Source: a virus
DNA: 45,756 nucleotides
IMG/VR virus record: IMGVR_UViG_3300005253_000535
Location: 1-45,756 of that record
Direction: 5' to 3' (one strand)
Part shown: positions 2,962-45,002 of the stretch, one piece after another
Position numbering within the stretch: position 1 is the stretch's first letter
Layout of the letters: each line of letters begins with the position of its first letter
Notes under the pieces: model-generated
Database searches by the model: none
What the model was told of the DNA's origin: nothing
The model's input: only the letters and a program-made list of their open reading frames with translations
Translations under genes and position numbers: made by a program

Positions 2962-3299
2962 GTAGGGGCGACGAGGCAGAGAAGGGGTTTCCCTCCCCCT
3001 CTAGTGTGGAAGCTGTTTCGCCGTCCCTACCCACAGCTTTACTCATGGACGAAAGGGAGCCCGCGGTGAACATACTGCGAATGGTTAAGGAGCACACGAA
3101 GAGGCATGGCTGGCCGACGGAAGCGGCCCGGCTGGGCCCGGCCACCTGTGGGCAGCCCCGGTTCAGTAACAAGGGCGCCTGCCGGACGGCCCACGCCTAT
3201 GCCGAAGCGGTCAAGGAGGTCTCCATGTTCGACGAGACGTTCTACACGTTCGTCTATGCCCGACCTTGTAACGCGCATGAGGAGAGTGGGTCTCCATGA
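2958..3299 (+). CDS. Hypothetical protein, 113 aa
   Basis: The GTG start overlaps the previous stop (GTGA), the usual coupling in this operon. The N-terminal 30 residues are Ser/Pro-rich and may be poorly ordered; a later ATG at 3096 would keep only the better-looking C-terminal half. Two cysteines (CGQPRFSNKGAC) are present. No family is recognised. Confidence 0.6.
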   Translation: MSRGDEAEKGFPSPSSVEAVSPSLPTALLMDEREPAVNILRMVKEHTKRHGWPTEAARLGPATCGQPRFSNKGACRTAHAYAEAVKEVSMFDETFYTFVYARPCNAHEESGSP

Positions 3300-3721: not shown

Positions 3722-4032
3722 CCTACCTCATCTGGTCCGCCCTCGCCTCCACTGCTGTCATCTCCCTAGAGTTCCTGTTCCGGCGGGGGCTCGTGTGGCA
3801 GGACAATCTCATCTGGCTGATACCTGCGGCAGTGGTAGCGAACTACCTCATCTACCGGCTGGTGACGACGGCGCCGACCTACGTGCTGGCCTTTGCCGCC
3901 TTCCAGCTAACGAATCTGACACTAAGGACGGGCCTCTCCCACTTTGTCCTGGACGAGCCCATCAAGAAGGGGAGTCTGGTGGCCGTGGTCGCTCTGGCTG
4001 CGGCGATAGGGATTGGAAATGCGTGGAAATGA
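3718..4032 (+). CDS. Membrane protein, 104 aa, 3-4 transmembrane segments
   Basis: The ATG at 3718 overlaps the previous stop (ATGA). Hydrophobic segments lie at about residues 3-20, 28-43, 50-68 and 85-101. The size and topology would fit a small inner-membrane protein such as an exclusion protein or a holin, but the early-operon position argues against a lysis role. No family is recognised. Confidence 0.65.
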   Translation: MTYLIWSALASTAVISLEFLFRRGLVWQDNLIWLIPAAVVANYLIYRLVTTAPTYVLAFAAFQLTNLTLRTGLSHFVLDEPIKKGSLVAVVALAAAIGIGNAWK

Positions 4033-4771
4033 GCCCGCCGTTGGCTCCCTGTTCTCCGGTATCGGTGGCCTCGACCTCGGCCTTGAACGAGCGGGGTGGG
4101 AAGTCAAGTGGCAGGTAGAGATAGACGAATGGTGCCGGCGGGTACTCACGAAACACTGGCCCGATGTTCCGAAGTACGGGGACGTGCGGGAGCTGTCGGG
4201 GGCCGACCTTGAGCCCGTCGACCTCATCGCGGGTGGATTCCCCTGCCAACCTGTTTCGCTTGCGGGTAGACGGAAAGCTCAGGCCGATTCGCGTTGGCTC
4301 TGGCCGGAGTTCCTACGCATCGTGTCTGAAGTACGACCCCGCCTCGTCCTCGTGGAGAACGTACCCGGGCTCCTCCATCGGGGCATGGCCGAGGTCCTCG
4401 GTGGTCTTTCCTCGTGCGGGTACGATGCTGAATGGGGTTGCTTATCGGCGGCCGATGTCGGTGCGCCGCACCTCCGGCAACGGGTCTTTGTCGTGGCCCA
4501 CGCCCAAGGGCTCACCGGACAAGATGGGAAGACCGAGACCCAACGACAGGGGGGACTTGCAGGCAGCGGTGGCACCTACCCCGACAGCGAACCGTTGGTC
4601 GGGACTCCAGTCCCACGGGAAGAACGCCATCCTTGGACAACTGAACCCGACGTGGGTCGAGTGGCTTATGGGGTTCCCCAGCGGGTGGACAGACTTAGAG
4701 GACTCGGAAACGCCGTCGTCCCCCAAGTCGCGGAGTGGATAGGGGAAAGGCTCATTGAAACGTGGAAGTAG
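4019..4771 (+). CDS. dcm: DNA (cytosine-5) methyltransferase
   Basis: Transfers a methyl group from S-adenosylmethionine to cytosine C5 in DNA. Motif I FSGIGGLDLG (residues 12-21), catalytic motif IV GGFPCQ (Cys76), motif VI ENV (113-115), motif VIII RQRVFVVAH (153-161) and motif X GLGNAVVPQ (228-236) are all present. At 250 residues it is short: only about 65 residues lie between motifs VIII and X, so the target-recognition domain is minimal. An upstream in-frame TTG at 4013 is an alternative start. The +1-shifted frame over 4164-4742 is also protein-like (separate entry). The likely role is to protect phage DNA from host restriction. Confidence 0.9.
   Translation: MRGNEPAVGSLFSGIGGLDLGLERAGWEVKWQVEIDEWCRRVLTKHWPDVPKYGDVRELSGADLEPVDLIAGGFPCQPVSLAGRRKAQADSRWLWPEFLRIVSEVRPRLVLVENVPGLLHRGMAEVLGGLSSCGYDAEWGCLSAADVGAPHLRQRVFVVAHAQGLTGQDGKTETQRQGGLAGSGGTYPDSEPLVGTPVPREERHPWTTEPDVGRVAYGVPQRVDRLRGLGNAVVPQVAEWIGERLIETWK
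4164..4742 (+). CDS. Overprinted ORF inside dcm, matching the variable C-terminal region seen with phage cytosine methyltransferases
   Basis: This frame lies wholly inside dcm, shifted +1, and reads 192 residues. From about residue 48 it shows a pattern I recognise from phage methyltransferase-associated proteins: ASCLKYDPASSSWRT, WPRSSVVFPRAGTMLNG, SWPTPKGS, PTPTANRWSGLQSHG and LNPTWVEWLMGFPSGWTDL. The last block uses the same bases that encode the PDVGRVAYGVPQRVDRL block of the methyltransferase. Whether it is expressed by internal initiation, by a +1 frameshift, or is only a conserved shadow cannot be decided here; the start is unknown and the first 47 residues look non-native. Confidence 0.4.
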   Translation: MFRSTGTCGSCRGPTLSPSTSSRVDSPANLFRLRVDGKLRPIRVGSGRSSYASCLKYDPASSSWRTYPGSSIGAWPRSSVVFPRAGTMLNGVAYRRPMSVRRTSGNGSLSWPTPKGSPDKMGRPRPNDRGDLQAAVAPTPTANRWSGLQSHGKNAILGQLNPTWVEWLMGFPSGWTDLEDSETPSSPKSRSG

Positions 4772-5804: not shown

Positions 5805-6203
5805 ATGTTCGCCACCATCATCAGCCGCGCCCTGTTCTACTACGCCTTCCATGCCGGCGCCGCCGACCCGGAGGACGTAGCCCAGGACGTCATCGTCAAC
5901 CTGCTCAAGCGCCCGCACTGGGTCAGGAGCAACATGACTAGCTATCTGCGGGTGGCGGCTCGTAATCAGATATACGGCCAGCAGCGAACCGAGAGCGCGC
6001 CTTCGTCCCTCAACGTCGACTGGTTGCCAGCGCCAGACCCGCCGGATGATGACGCGGTCGACGCTGTCAGCCGCCTGACGGGAGAGTACCCCGATTTGGT
6101 GGCTTGGCTTATCGACTACTCAGAGAGGGCCAGCTACGGGGTGACGGATCGGGTGCGGGCTAGTCGAAGCCGGCGGAAGTTACGGGAGGTATTAGCGACA
6201 TGA
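5805..6203 (+). CDS. Sigma-70 region-2-like protein, 132 aa
   Basis: Residues 18-60 match sigma region 2: DPEDVAQDVIVNLLKR followed by TSYLRVAARNQIYGQQR, the helix pair that binds core RNA polymerase and the -10 element. The rest is short, with a Pro/Asp linker and a basic C-terminal helix (SRSRRKLREVLAT) in place of a full region 4. It could be a phage sigma factor that redirects host polymerase, or a DNA-binding protein that reuses the fold. Its stop overlaps the nuclease start. It lies outside the late operon, as expected for a regulator made early. Confidence 0.6.
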   Translation: MFATIISRALFYYAFHAGAADPEDVAQDVIVNLLKRPHWVRSNMTSYLRVAARNQIYGQQRTESAPSSLNVDWLPAPDPPDDDAVDAVSRLTGEYPDLVAWLIDYSERASYGVTDRVRASRSRRKLREVLAT

Positions 6204-6964
6204 CTCTATCAGATCAATTCCTTGCAACAGCCCGGAAGCTGGCTGACGAGCGGCCAGACCGGAAGGTTCCCTCGCCCTCATCGGGGCAGCGGTGTACCCG
6301 CGAAAACTGGTTCAAGGCCCACGGCTTCCCGAAGACGCACCAGCCCGACAACGGGGAGAGTGCGATCTCGGCCGAGACGGGGCGTGCGTCCGAGCCTTTC
6401 CTCACGGACATCCTCCTCGCTATGGATCCGCCCCTCGTCGTGGGGGTCCTGTTCGAGGCAAAGGATGAGGATGCGAGGGAACTGAGCGAGGACGAGTTGG
6501 CCAAGGTCTCGATGGCCGGCGGCCAGGTGGACAACATCGGCATAACAGCCGAGGGCGAGCACGTCCTCATCGAGTACAAGAGGAAGGGGACGTTCGGCTA
6601 CCTCGACCTGCTACGCAAGGGCCTCCGTGAGGGCGCCGAGGACGACTACATGCAGATGCAGGCCCTCATGGCGGGGAAGGAGCTGAAGCGCGGGCTATAC
6701 ATTGCCGCCAACTTCGACCGCTCCGCACTCACGGCCAACACGCGGAAGTGGGACGAGCGGCCCAACGGTGTCCACATCGAGTGGGTCGACTTCAGCCCGG
6801 CGGCCGCCAAGGCCGCCAAGCAGAGGGCGGAGATGCAGCAGGGCTACATCGACGGGGAAGCGGATCCCGCCAAGGTGCCGAGGGACTACGACCCGTTCGG
6901 CAAGGACGCAAGATTTCCTTGCGGGTGGTGCGTTTTCTTCCCGACGTGCAAGGAGGCCAGGTAA
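6200..6964 (+). CDS. Cas4/AddB-like PD-(D/E)XK exonuclease with Fe-S cluster cysteines
   Basis: A 254-residue nuclease. The active site is visible as GGQVDN (Asp111) and IEYKRKG (Glu125, Lys127). Cys32 near the N-terminus and Cys241, Cys244 and Cys250 (CGWC, FPTC) at the C-terminus give the four-cysteine arrangement that holds a 4Fe-4S cluster in Cas4 and AddB. Known relatives resect DNA ends to leave single strands. The Rad52-like annealing protein two genes downstream is the natural partner, giving a Red-like exonuclease/annealase pair. The start overlaps the sigma-like gene by 4 nt. Confidence 0.85.
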   Translation: MTLSDQFLATARKLADERPDRKVPSPSSGQRCTRENWFKAHGFPKTHQPDNGESAISAETGRASEPFLTDILLAMDPPLVVGVLFEAKDEDARELSEDELAKVSMAGGQVDNIGITAEGEHVLIEYKRKGTFGYLDLLRKGLREGAEDDYMQMQALMAGKELKRGLYIAANFDRSALTANTRKWDERPNGVHIEWVDFSPAAAKAAKQRAEMQQGYIDGEADPAKVPRDYDPFGKDARFPCGWCVFFPTCKEAR

Positions 6965-42473: not shown

Positions 42474-42682
42474 TCCACTACTTCAGGATCGGGAGCGGCT
42501 CGTTCTGGCGGGGCATCCTGCTCTACCTGCGTTGGCAAGTTCTCCGCTGGCTGTGGCAATGCCAAGAGCCAGACTGTGAACACTACTTCACCTATAGCTC
42601 ACGCACCTCGGCCCGCGAGTGGCACAAGATGGTCCACGAGTATCTGAGTGGCTTACACACTCGACAGTCCTTGCGCCCTTGA
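42470..42682 (+). CDS. Hypothetical protein, 70 aa
   Basis: Coupled by ATGA to the previous peptide, with AGGGAGG upstream. Aromatic and basic N-terminal half (YFRIGSGSFWRGILLYLRWQVLRWLWQ), then CQEPDCEHYF with H residues, a possible zinc finger. Overlaps the polymerase start by 35 nt. Confidence 0.55.
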   Translation: MIHYFRIGSGSFWRGILLYLRWQVLRWLWQCQEPDCEHYFTYSSRTSAREWHKMVHEYLSGLHTRQSLRP

Positions 42683-45002
42683 CGTAGAGACCACGGGCGT
42701 CAAGCGGGAGGACACCGCCGACCCACGCCGAGCCTCTTTCGTGTGCGCTGCTGTGGCTCCTCACGGCATCGTCACTTTCAACCCCCCTGACGTAAGGCCG
42801 GGGGCTAGCGTGACGGTCCATAACATGCCCTACGACGCCGTAGTCCTCGATCGCTGGGATGCCAACTGGGATGACACGAAGATTCTCGCCCACATCGGGG
42901 GACACCCGGATACCACGCTGAAGGGGCTGCAAACGAGGCTGCTGGGCCGGCCCGCTCTCCACCACGACGAGGCTGAGGAGAGGGGGCAGGTCCCCGAGTA
43001 CAACCTGTACGACGCCATCAACACCTGGGATCTCCGCCCCGTCCTCTACGATGGGCTGAGGCCCGAGACACGCAGGCTCTACGACACCCTTGAGAGGCCG
43101 CTGCTACCCCTGTGGGCCAAGATGACGATGGAGGGGTGCCTTGCTCTGGGAACCAAAATACTCAAGGCTAACCTCTCTTGGCAGGAGATTCAAGATGTCG
43201 AGGTCGGCGACGAGGTAGTCGGGTTCGATGAGTTCCAGCAGAAGGGCGAACGCTATCGTAAACTGCGCCGCTCTCGTGTGCTTGCTGTAACACCAAGCAT
43301 TGCGGAGTGCTTCGAGGTCGTCACCGATAGGGGAACCGTTACGTGTACCAGCAACCACCGCTGGCTGATTACCGACAGTCACCCGGCGGACCGCCTTTGG
43401 CGGCGCACCGACCAACTGAAGCTAGGACACTACTTGCGCTGGTTGTCCCCGCCGACAGCGCCCCGCACGGACTGGACTGCTGGATACCTTGCCGGGGCTT
43501 TCGACGGAGAAGGCTGTGCTGCACCGTCCATTATCGTGTTTACACAACGCATCAATCCAATGCTAGACCTCGTCCTGGCGGCGCTGCACGAGGAGAACTT
43601 CCGTGTTCGCGCTGTTCAACGCCTGCGTAAGCGCGACGACACCGTGGGGGTATGGGTTAAGGGCGGACTGCCCGAGCAAATCCGGTTCTTTGCCCGCTTC
43701 CGTCCCCAACGCCTGCGTATACCGTGGGAGGGCATGGCTGGTGGTCGGACAGGTACTCGTGCCCGAGTTATCGCAATACGGCCACTGGGCCGACTGCCTG
43801 TGTGGGACCTGACTACGACAACTGCGACATTCATAGCTGCGGGGTTCTATTCCCATAACAGCTTCAACCTCGACAAGCCCGCACTCCAAGCCTACAGGAC
43901 GGCACTGGCTGAGGATACGGAGGGGGTGCTGACTAAGGCTGAGGCCCTGCTACCGCGGGGCCGAGTCGTCTCCCGCTGTAAGAAGTGCGAGCTGCTACGT
44001 GAGCGGATGGAGACGGGGCAGAGGTGCGAGGACGGGAAGAACCACTCGTGGGATACCAAGTTCGAGGCCGACCTGGCCCTCAACCTTAACTCGCCCGAGC
44101 AGCTCCTTGCGGCGTTCACCGACATGGGCCTGGGCGTCAAGGATACGGGGGTCGACACGATAAGGCTCGTCGCCCACCGGCACCCGGGAGTCCGCGCCCT
44201 TCTCGACTATCGCACCCTGCACAAGGAACTGTCCACCTACGTCGAGCCGTTCCTCCGCATTGCTGAGAGTGGGCGGAGGCTCGGCGCCGTCTGGCGGCCG
44301 ACCGGGGCCTGGACGGGGCGTGTCTCATCCGCATACCCCAACCTCCAGAACATCCCCGCAGACCTGTGGCGGTTCTTCCTGCCTCCCTTCGTCGTCGCCG
44401 ACAACGCCCAGCTAGAGATCCGCGTCGCTGCTCACATCAGCCAGGATCCCCAGTTGATGGCTGCCTGCCAGGGCGACATCCATGCTGAGATGCAGATACT
44501 CTATGGCCTGCCGGCGGGCAGTGAGGGTCGGCGCGCCACCAAGGTCGGGACGTTCGGCACCATGTACCTCGGTGGGCCAGCAGTCATGCTCCAGAAGGCG
44601 CAAGAGTATGGCGTGCCGATGACCTGGAAGGATGCAGAGCGTCTGCAAGGGGTCGTCATGGCTAGGATGCCCGACTACTTCCGCTGGGCCTGGAGTATCG
44701 CTGACGAGCGGGTCGTCGACGGCCTGTTCGGCCGCGTGCATCACATCCCCCTCGGCATGGACGAGGGGCACATGGGTCGGGAGGCTGTCAACGCCCCCAT
44801 CCAGGGGGGTGCCGCGGACATCTGCAAGTTCCAGATGTTGGCCCTGCATCGGGCTGGCTACAAGGTCGTCGCCCAAGTGCATGACTCCGTCGTCGTGGAG
44901 GTGGGGGAGAGCGACCTGGCGGATGCACGGGTGGAGGTGCCACGTATAATGGAGGGGGCTGCGCCAGAGTTGGACGTGCCTATCAAGGTGGAGGCGAAAT
45001 GA
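42648..45002 (+). CDS. polA: Family A DNA polymerase with an in-frame intein
   Basis: 784-residue precursor; 543 residues after splicing. Residues 10-135 are a short 3'-5' exonuclease domain with LDVETTG (Exo I) and VHNMPYDAVVLDRW (Exo II). The polymerase part has GAWTGRVSSAYPNLQNIP, motif A ADNAQLEIR, motif B GRRATKVGTFGTMYLG (the residue aligned with E. coli Phe762 is Phe) and motif C QVHDSVVVEV. It likely replicates the genome with the phage clamp and the RecA-fold helicase. GTG start. The intein is listed separately. Confidence 0.93.
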   Translation: MAYTLDSPCALDVETTGVKREDTADPRRASFVCAAVAPHGIVTFNPPDVRPGASVTVHNMPYDAVVLDRWDANWDDTKILAHIGGHPDTTLKGLQTRLLGRPALHHDEAEERGQVPEYNLYDAINTWDLRPVLYDGLRPETRRLYDTLERPLLPLWAKMTMEGCLALGTKILKANLSWQEIQDVEVGDEVVGFDEFQQKGERYRKLRRSRVLAVTPSIAECFEVVTDRGTVTCTSNHRWLITDSHPADRLWRRTDQLKLGHYLRWLSPPTAPRTDWTAGYLAGAFDGEGCAAPSIIVFTQRINPMLDLVLAALHEENFRVRAVQRLRKRDDTVGVWVKGGLPEQIRFFARFRPQRLRIPWEGMAGGRTGTRARVIAIRPLGRLPVWDLTTTTATFIAAGFYSHNSFNLDKPALQAYRTALAEDTEGVLTKAEALLPRGRVVSRCKKCELLRERMETGQRCEDGKNHSWDTKFEADLALNLNSPEQLLAAFTDMGLGVKDTGVDTIRLVAHRHPGVRALLDYRTLHKELSTYVEPFLRIAESGRRLGAVWRPTGAWTGRVSSAYPNLQNIPADLWRFFLPPFVVADNAQLEIRVAAHISQDPQLMAACQGDIHAEMQILYGLPAGSEGRRATKVGTFGTMYLGGPAVMLQKAQEYGVPMTWKDAERLQGVVMARMPDYFRWAWSIADERVVDGLFGRVHHIPLGMDEGHMGREAVNAPIQGGAADICKFQMLALHRAGYKVVAQVHDSVVVEVGESDLADARVEVPRIMEGAAPELDVPIKVEAK
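43137..43859 (+). mobile_element. Intein with LAGLIDADG-type motif in the polymerase
   Basis: 241 residues (164-404 of the precursor). Block A starts CLALGTKIL; block B is DRGTVTCTSNHRWL; the C-terminal blocks are VWDLTTTTATFIAAGFYSHN, and the next residue is Ser (+1 nucleophile). One LAGLIDADG motif, YLAGAFDGEGC, is visible, so the endonuclease is a single-motif type or is decaying. The insertion sits in the MTMEG | SFNLD sequence between exonuclease and polymerase domains, not at an active-site motif. Confidence 0.93.

Follow-up and report, generated by a model that had tools for sequence, protein, structure and literature searches.

Introduction

In canonical C5-cytosine DNA methyltransferases, the interval between motifs VIII and IX is the target-recognition domain (TRD). 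M.EcoHK31I and M.EaeI are C5 methyltransferases composed of two polypeptides. Traits that define the M.EcoHK31I type include recognition of YGGCCR and a requirement for both polypeptides in methylation. The M.EcoHK31I small subunit, of ~176 residues, was reportedly described by Lee, Kam and Shaw in 1995 as read in a different frame from inside the large-subunit gene. YdiO/YdiP of BsuMI is a split methyltransferase of the M.AquI type. In M.EcoHK31I the large subunit holds motifs I–VIII and X and the small subunit only motif IX, while in M.AquI motifs I–VIII reside in one chain and motifs IX–X in the other (PMC3404938). The literature that we searched contained M.EcoHK31I itself, and no description of a nested layout in phages was found there.

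Here we analyze a gene in a viral stretch of 45,756 nucleotides (IMG/VR record IMGVR_UViG_3300005253_000535, positions 1 to 45,756; hereafter, the window), which has a G + C content of 62.8%. The data support well the assignment of this gene as a phage member of the M.EcoHK31I kind. We estimate a probability of about 0.88 that this one gene codes a two-subunit C5-cytosine DNA methyltransferase in full, with a large alpha subunit and a beta subunit nested within it. The kind itself is known; what is new is the breadth of the nested layout and an apparent swap of the functional frame along one gene.

Results

A second reading frame nested in a cytosine methyltransferase gene

The alpha ORF occupies positions 4013–4771 on the plus strand, as do all features of this gene described below, and codes for 252 residues from a TTG at 4013, with an in-frame ATG at 4019. 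Profile searches with alpha returned phrog_363 (2.9e-76), PF00145 (3.6e-45) and TIGR00675 (1.5e-34), whereby the PF00145 match covers only profile positions 4–167 of 324, corresponding to motifs I–VIII. The catalytic PCQ of motif IV (4241–4249; P77, C78 and Q79) is invariant in two alignments, and E115 and N116 of the motif VI ENV (4355–4363) are also invariant. By ORF analysis, the +1 frame is uninterrupted from a stop at 4122–4124 until the end of beta at 4742. The beta ORF, nested in alpha, encodes 192 residues when read from an ATG at 4164 (4164–4742) and 177 residues from an alternative TTG at 4209 (4209–4742).

The initial annotation had described this overprinted ORF, and all four sequence blocks that it quoted are present. 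These include KYDPASSSWRT (4329–4361), for which the family consensus is AxxDPxxxxWRTxQ and which is homologous to the beta subunit of split-type enzymes (E 7.5e-25), and FPRAGTMLNG (4407–4436), with the family consensus TWPRSGxxRNG. It had also, correctly, attributed the blocks to C-terminal regions of phage methyltransferases. Alongside the alpha match to phrog_363, the beta ORF alone matched phrog_1008 (5.6e-25), and tblastn with beta alone matched 43 phage records, including Synechococcus, Mycobacterium, Streptomyces, Salmonella, Microcystis and Acinetobacter phages.

The GC3 of the dual-coded gene is 0.66, compared to 0.82–0.91 in three of four nearby ORFs. A lower GC3 is expected where a second frame holds third positions; the non-overlapped part of the gene has a GC3 of 0.67, so the difference is not specific.

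Motif IX is carried by the +1 frame

We compared the two frames with canonical enzymes by profile–profile alignment (hhalign), using 74 alphas, eight canonical enzymes and a beta profile built from 103 betas. The alphas aligned to the canonical enzymes over motifs I–VIII (E 1e-58) and over motif X (E 6.6e-5), the latter being LRGLGNAVVPQVAEWIGERLI in the window (4697–4759), where G232 and N233 are invariant. Between motifs VIII and X nothing aligned in the 74 alphas, indicating that motif IX is absent from the alpha frame, and the W-x-M-G form of motif IX was found in frame 0 in none of 159 alpha-selected loci. Instead, the C-terminal beta block, LNPTWVEWLMGFPxGWT, aligned to canonical motif IX, RRLTPLECERLMGFPDDHT, with an E-value of 6.8e-4 as the sole credible match. 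In the window, motif IX is LNPTWVEWLMGFP, carried by the +1 frame; the beta feature LNPTWVEWLMGFPSGWTDL spans 4641–4697, and its P162, W167 and G170 are invariant in 103 sequences. The initial annotation had assigned motifs VIII–X to the main frame, which these alignments correct, and the presence of the methyltransferase's own motif IX in the shadow frame was absent from it. Thus, with motifs I–VIII and X in alpha and motif IX in beta, the full motif set is present across two frames, its members following one another on the DNA as they usually do, and the location of motif IX in the beta frame argues that both frames build one enzyme.

In the model that we propose, alpha would be the SAM-binding, catalytic large domain, containing motifs I–VIII and a C-terminal motif X helix. 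Beta would initiate independently within alpha, at TTG 4209 or ATG 4164, be read in the +1 frame to its end at 4742, and contribute motif IX and probably most of the TRD. Alpha and beta would then associate to form the complete enzyme, as in M.EcoHK31I.

This motif division is the same as that in the published description of M.EcoHK31I, and the 177 residues of beta from TTG 4209 compare with the ~176 residues of the M.EcoHK31I small subunit. The sequence collections that we searched yielded no entry recognizable as M.EcoHK31I. The nesting that marks the M.EcoHK31I type is present, as 4164–4742 lies inside 4013–4771 in the +1 frame, and the relation is also +1 in 89 of 89 scored loci. Unlike M.EcoHK31I, however, the window gene is phage-borne and has no restriction-enzyme domain among the neighbors tested. 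Monomeric C5 methyltransferases (M.HhaI, Dcm and our canonical class, L219–L252) show the same order of motifs along the DNA, I–VIII, TRD, IX and X, but carry all of them in one frame with no comparable +1 constraint; their defining trait, a single chain that joins motif IX to motifs I–VIII, is absent from the alpha frame of the window.

Initiation of beta

A start candidate for beta is located between alpha residues 40 and 90 in 95 of 102 related genes, near the 5′ edge of the region depleted of +1 stops (see below). The position that most often has the best Shine-Dalgarno sequence (23 of the 95 relatives) corresponds in the alignment to TTG 4209 of the window, close to the onset of stop depletion at alpha residue ~61–75. 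A GGGGG Shine-Dalgarno-like stretch (4198–4202; −8.6 kcal/mol) lies 6 nt upstream of this TTG and is a possible ribosome-binding site, although for the window alone it is not significant (p 0.2). Across the family, the Shine-Dalgarno energy is −6.5 kcal/mol versus −5.2 kcal/mol in position-matched shuffles, with 7 of 95 genes significant and a large gap only against unmatched shuffles. Hence, the enrichment, modest once position-matched, lends weak support to the start, and we favor TTG 4209 (177 residues) over ATG 4164 (192 residues) with low confidence. In two relatives (L009 and L012), the beta ATG lies four bases past the alpha start and the two share one Shine-Dalgarno sequence, and in a plasmid copy (L260) beta begins with an ATG behind AAGGTGG that adjoins the alpha start.

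These starts bear on the suggestion in the initial annotation that a +1 frameshift links the frames. A programmed +1 ribosomal frameshift would join the N-terminal part of alpha to the beta frame and produce a fusion besides, or in place of, free beta. The frames do stand in a +1 relation, no one start codon is invariant for the beta ORF, TRD-IX-X of actinophage relatives is read +1 to the frame that holds their motifs I–VIII, and PRFect lists methyltransferases among the phage genes reported with frameshifts (PMC10885494). However, a shift into beta would drop motif X, which in the nested class is present only in the frame of alpha. In addition, the betas of L009, L012 and the plasmid copy open with their own ATG adjoining the alpha start, and stop depletion begins at alpha residue ~61–75, a stretch that offers start codons in 95 of 102 relatives. 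On the grounds of independent beta starts and the location of motif X, we reject frameshifting as the main route and consider it improbable overall; the link is neither needed nor supported. We infer from these sequence features that beta would be made as a free polypeptide, the second subunit of the two-chain enzyme.

Beta is found together with alpha

The initial annotation had viewed the locus as a rare case, which does not stand: matches were found in at least 559 IMG/VR stretches and in 348 stretches of bacterial and archaeal genomes, and M.EcoHK31I provides a biochemical precedent. In 10 of 12 tblastn loci inspected, neither frame is interrupted across the shared DNA, the exceptions being one split (L005) and one broken (L013) locus. 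Alpha is encoded at all 80 IMG/VR loci found via beta. A strict check of alpha intactness was passed in 76 of 78 classified IMG/VR beta loci, and the other two also show motif X. A further 89 beta loci, including 80 that came from scanning bacterial and archaeal species genomes, all encode alpha, which without exception is read −1 to the beta frame. Alpha is thus present at 169 of 169 beta-selected loci, and no beta without alpha was found among the loci examined. Among alpha-chosen genes, at most 2 of 102 contain a stop in the beta core.

This co-occurrence weighs against beta being a protein of separate function, such as a regulator or counter-defense factor, overprinted on a complete single-chain methyltransferase. 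Such a role could be read into the serine-rich composition of beta and into its blocks SWRT, SGMxRNG and WPTP, which are unexplained by any non-methyltransferase family. Yet the most conserved block of beta is methyltransferase motif IX, which is missing in alpha, beta is never found without alpha, and it is homologous to the C-terminal half-enzyme (motifs IX and X) of split actinophage methyltransferases. We therefore regard a separate function as very improbable, and a subunit of the methyltransferase as the preferred assignment for beta.

Annotation of the two frames is uneven. Some records list the methyltransferase frame, two (L004 and L010) list the shadow frame as a hypothetical protein, and in Paenibacillus phage Bloom both nested ORFs are annotated as methyltransferases. 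PHROG 1008, which matches the window beta and is labeled "DNA methyltransferase", is apparently a family of beta-frame proteins; the label hides that its members would each pair, as a subunit, with a methyltransferase read in the other frame. Many "DNA methyltransferase" genes of phages and prophages carry an annotation in a single frame, so that databases lack half of the enzyme. Cloned constructs may lack the beta half as well and would then test inactive.

In the broken locus (Mycobacterium phage AlpineSix, 1287–1883), a deletion fuses the first half of beta to the second half of alpha. The product is annotated as "DNA methyltransferase", but is without alpha motifs I–VI and is probably dead. 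Eight other records, among them Ochi17, Llama and Seabastian, share the tblastn query range of this locus.

Both reading frames are under selection

Selection was examined in 102 relatives collected by alpha only, of the LGNAVVPQ type (an alpha-only criterion), from which near-duplicates were removed. Synonymous codons of the main frame were shuffled within each gene and +1 stops were counted by position. Over alpha residues 101–207, 2 stops were observed versus 344 expected, with 0 versus 249 at window alpha residues 101–170 and 2 versus 95 at residues 171–207. Depletion was partial over residues 61–100 (41 versus 122), and there was none before residue 60 (193 versus 172) or beyond residue 225 (212 versus 158). 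The control +2 frame of the same genes was near expectation (1513 stops versus 1462). Canonical methyltransferases, which contain LTPxECERLMGFP in frame, had 416 stops versus 506 expected in +1, and 939 versus 936 in +2. They thus show no comparable depletion, and the +1 depletion is specific to the nested genes. For the window alone, the count of 0 versus 2.4 expected is borderline (p = 0.05), so that the relatives make decisive a stop-codon case that the window by itself only suggests.

Profile scores lead to the same frame. Against a beta HMM built from ten phage shadow frames, with the window left out, the window beta scored 168 bits, while 100 synonymous shuffles gave a mean of 52 and a maximum of 78 bits (z 10.5). 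All 88 of 88 nested genes outscored each of their own 100 synonymous shuffles on the beta profile, with a median z of 8.5. In the alpha-chosen genes, the codon beneath the Met of the beta WLMG is xAT in 94 of 94 xAY cases, versus 38.9 expected. An earlier count of 145 of 145 was set aside as circular, because its loci had been selected via the beta motif. The alpha third-position substitution falls from 0.46 to 0.38 in the overlap, but canonical controls also shift between regions, and over motifs IV–VIII the overlap is not separated from the control.

The +1 frame is thus real and under selection, and both frames are conserved. These data uphold the proposal of the initial annotation that two real families are dual-coded, with purifying selection on both (2 versus 344 stops; window z 10.5). 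The selection detected in the +1 frame speaks against its homologues being mere annotations of a shadow frame. That the frame is an untranslated by-product of main-frame conservation and codon bias has a practically negligible probability, for although shuffles still reach ~52 bits, so that the resemblance partly leaks from the main frame, and many annotations give only one of the two frames, this reading is countered by the 2 versus 344 stops with a near-flat control frame, by the 88 of 88 genes above all shuffles and by the higher conservation of beta than alpha between motifs VIII and IX.

The target-recognition domain

Conservation of the two frames was compared in independent pairs picked by alpha similarity, a choice whose bias opposes higher beta conservation. 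From PCQ to motif VIII, alpha identity is 0.80 versus 0.58 for beta, and alpha is higher in 60 of 61 related pairs. Between motifs VIII and IX, by contrast, beta identity is 0.66 versus 0.52 for alpha, and beta is higher in 46 of 54 (Wilcoxon p 4e-8; 55 related pairs). From this higher beta conservation, we infer that the TRD, which would correspond to window positions 4520–4640, is probably mainly a product of the beta frame. This placement differs from that for M.EcoHK31I, the predicted TRD of which was reported in the large subunit (PMC3404938).

We consider it likely that within this widespread phage and bacterial nested family the functionally dominant frame switches along the gene, from alpha for motifs I–VIII to beta for the TRD and motif IX and again to alpha for motif X; the TRD placement in M.EcoHK31I would then be due for revision. 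If so, few long dual-coding families on one strand would be better supported outside small-genome viruses. The family amounts to dozens of natural experiments in which two proteins share ~500 bases and one of them can vary DNA specificity in the overlap. It is also a source of naturally occurring split methyltransferases, and the split format has already served for targeted methylation (PMC3439449).

Split and single-frame relatives

The actinophage relatives Lilbooboo, ByChance, Firecracker and ArV1 display an M.AquI-type layout, with a beta that shows homology to the nested one (E 7.5e-25). Like M.AquI-type enzymes, the product of the window gene would consist of two polypeptides with motif IX in the small one. 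In the M.AquI type, however, the beta frame also holds motif X and the two frames overlap over a shorter distance, whereas in the window motif X belongs to alpha, and beta lies wholly inside it. The M.AquI trait of a small subunit with motifs IX and X is accordingly absent from the window; it is present in L005, L253, L258 and L259. In the split actinophage class, the overlap showed no significant depletion of stops when genes were taken one by one.

Propionibacterium phage PFR1 (L256, 694–1740) contains a single-frame methyltransferase, the +1 frame of which still holds a 151-residue beta-like ORF scoring 72 bits, and it may descend from a fusion, its shadow frame being in decay. Judged by their sequences, the nested, split and single-frame layouts look like stages of one family, direction of change aside.

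Split-type loci were noted at L005 (1362–2418), L253, L254, L255, L258 and L259. The Lilbooboo beta matches 563 phage records, mostly of actinophages, many of which have a split methyltransferase annotated as two genes. Homology of split-type betas often reaches upstream of the annotated start, as in Lilbooboo gp33, and these starts may be called late.

Genomic neighborhood and role

A Pfam scan of nine neighboring ORFs revealed no nuclease or restriction-enzyme domain. With no restriction-enzyme domain in these neighbors, the gene most likely encodes an orphan phage methyltransferase that would mark the phage DNA, most simply for protection, for example against host restriction.

Several other ORFs of the window gave matches. 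The ORF at 3296–3721 matches phrog_1485, of unknown function (3.6e-6), that at 6200–6964 a Cas4-domain exonuclease (2e-13) and that at 42648–45002 a DNA polymerase (4e-67). A nearby ORF has a weak match to an Erf-like annealing protein, and a small ORF at 5805–6203 matches Sigma-70 region 2 with an E-value of 0.0013, below the gathering score.
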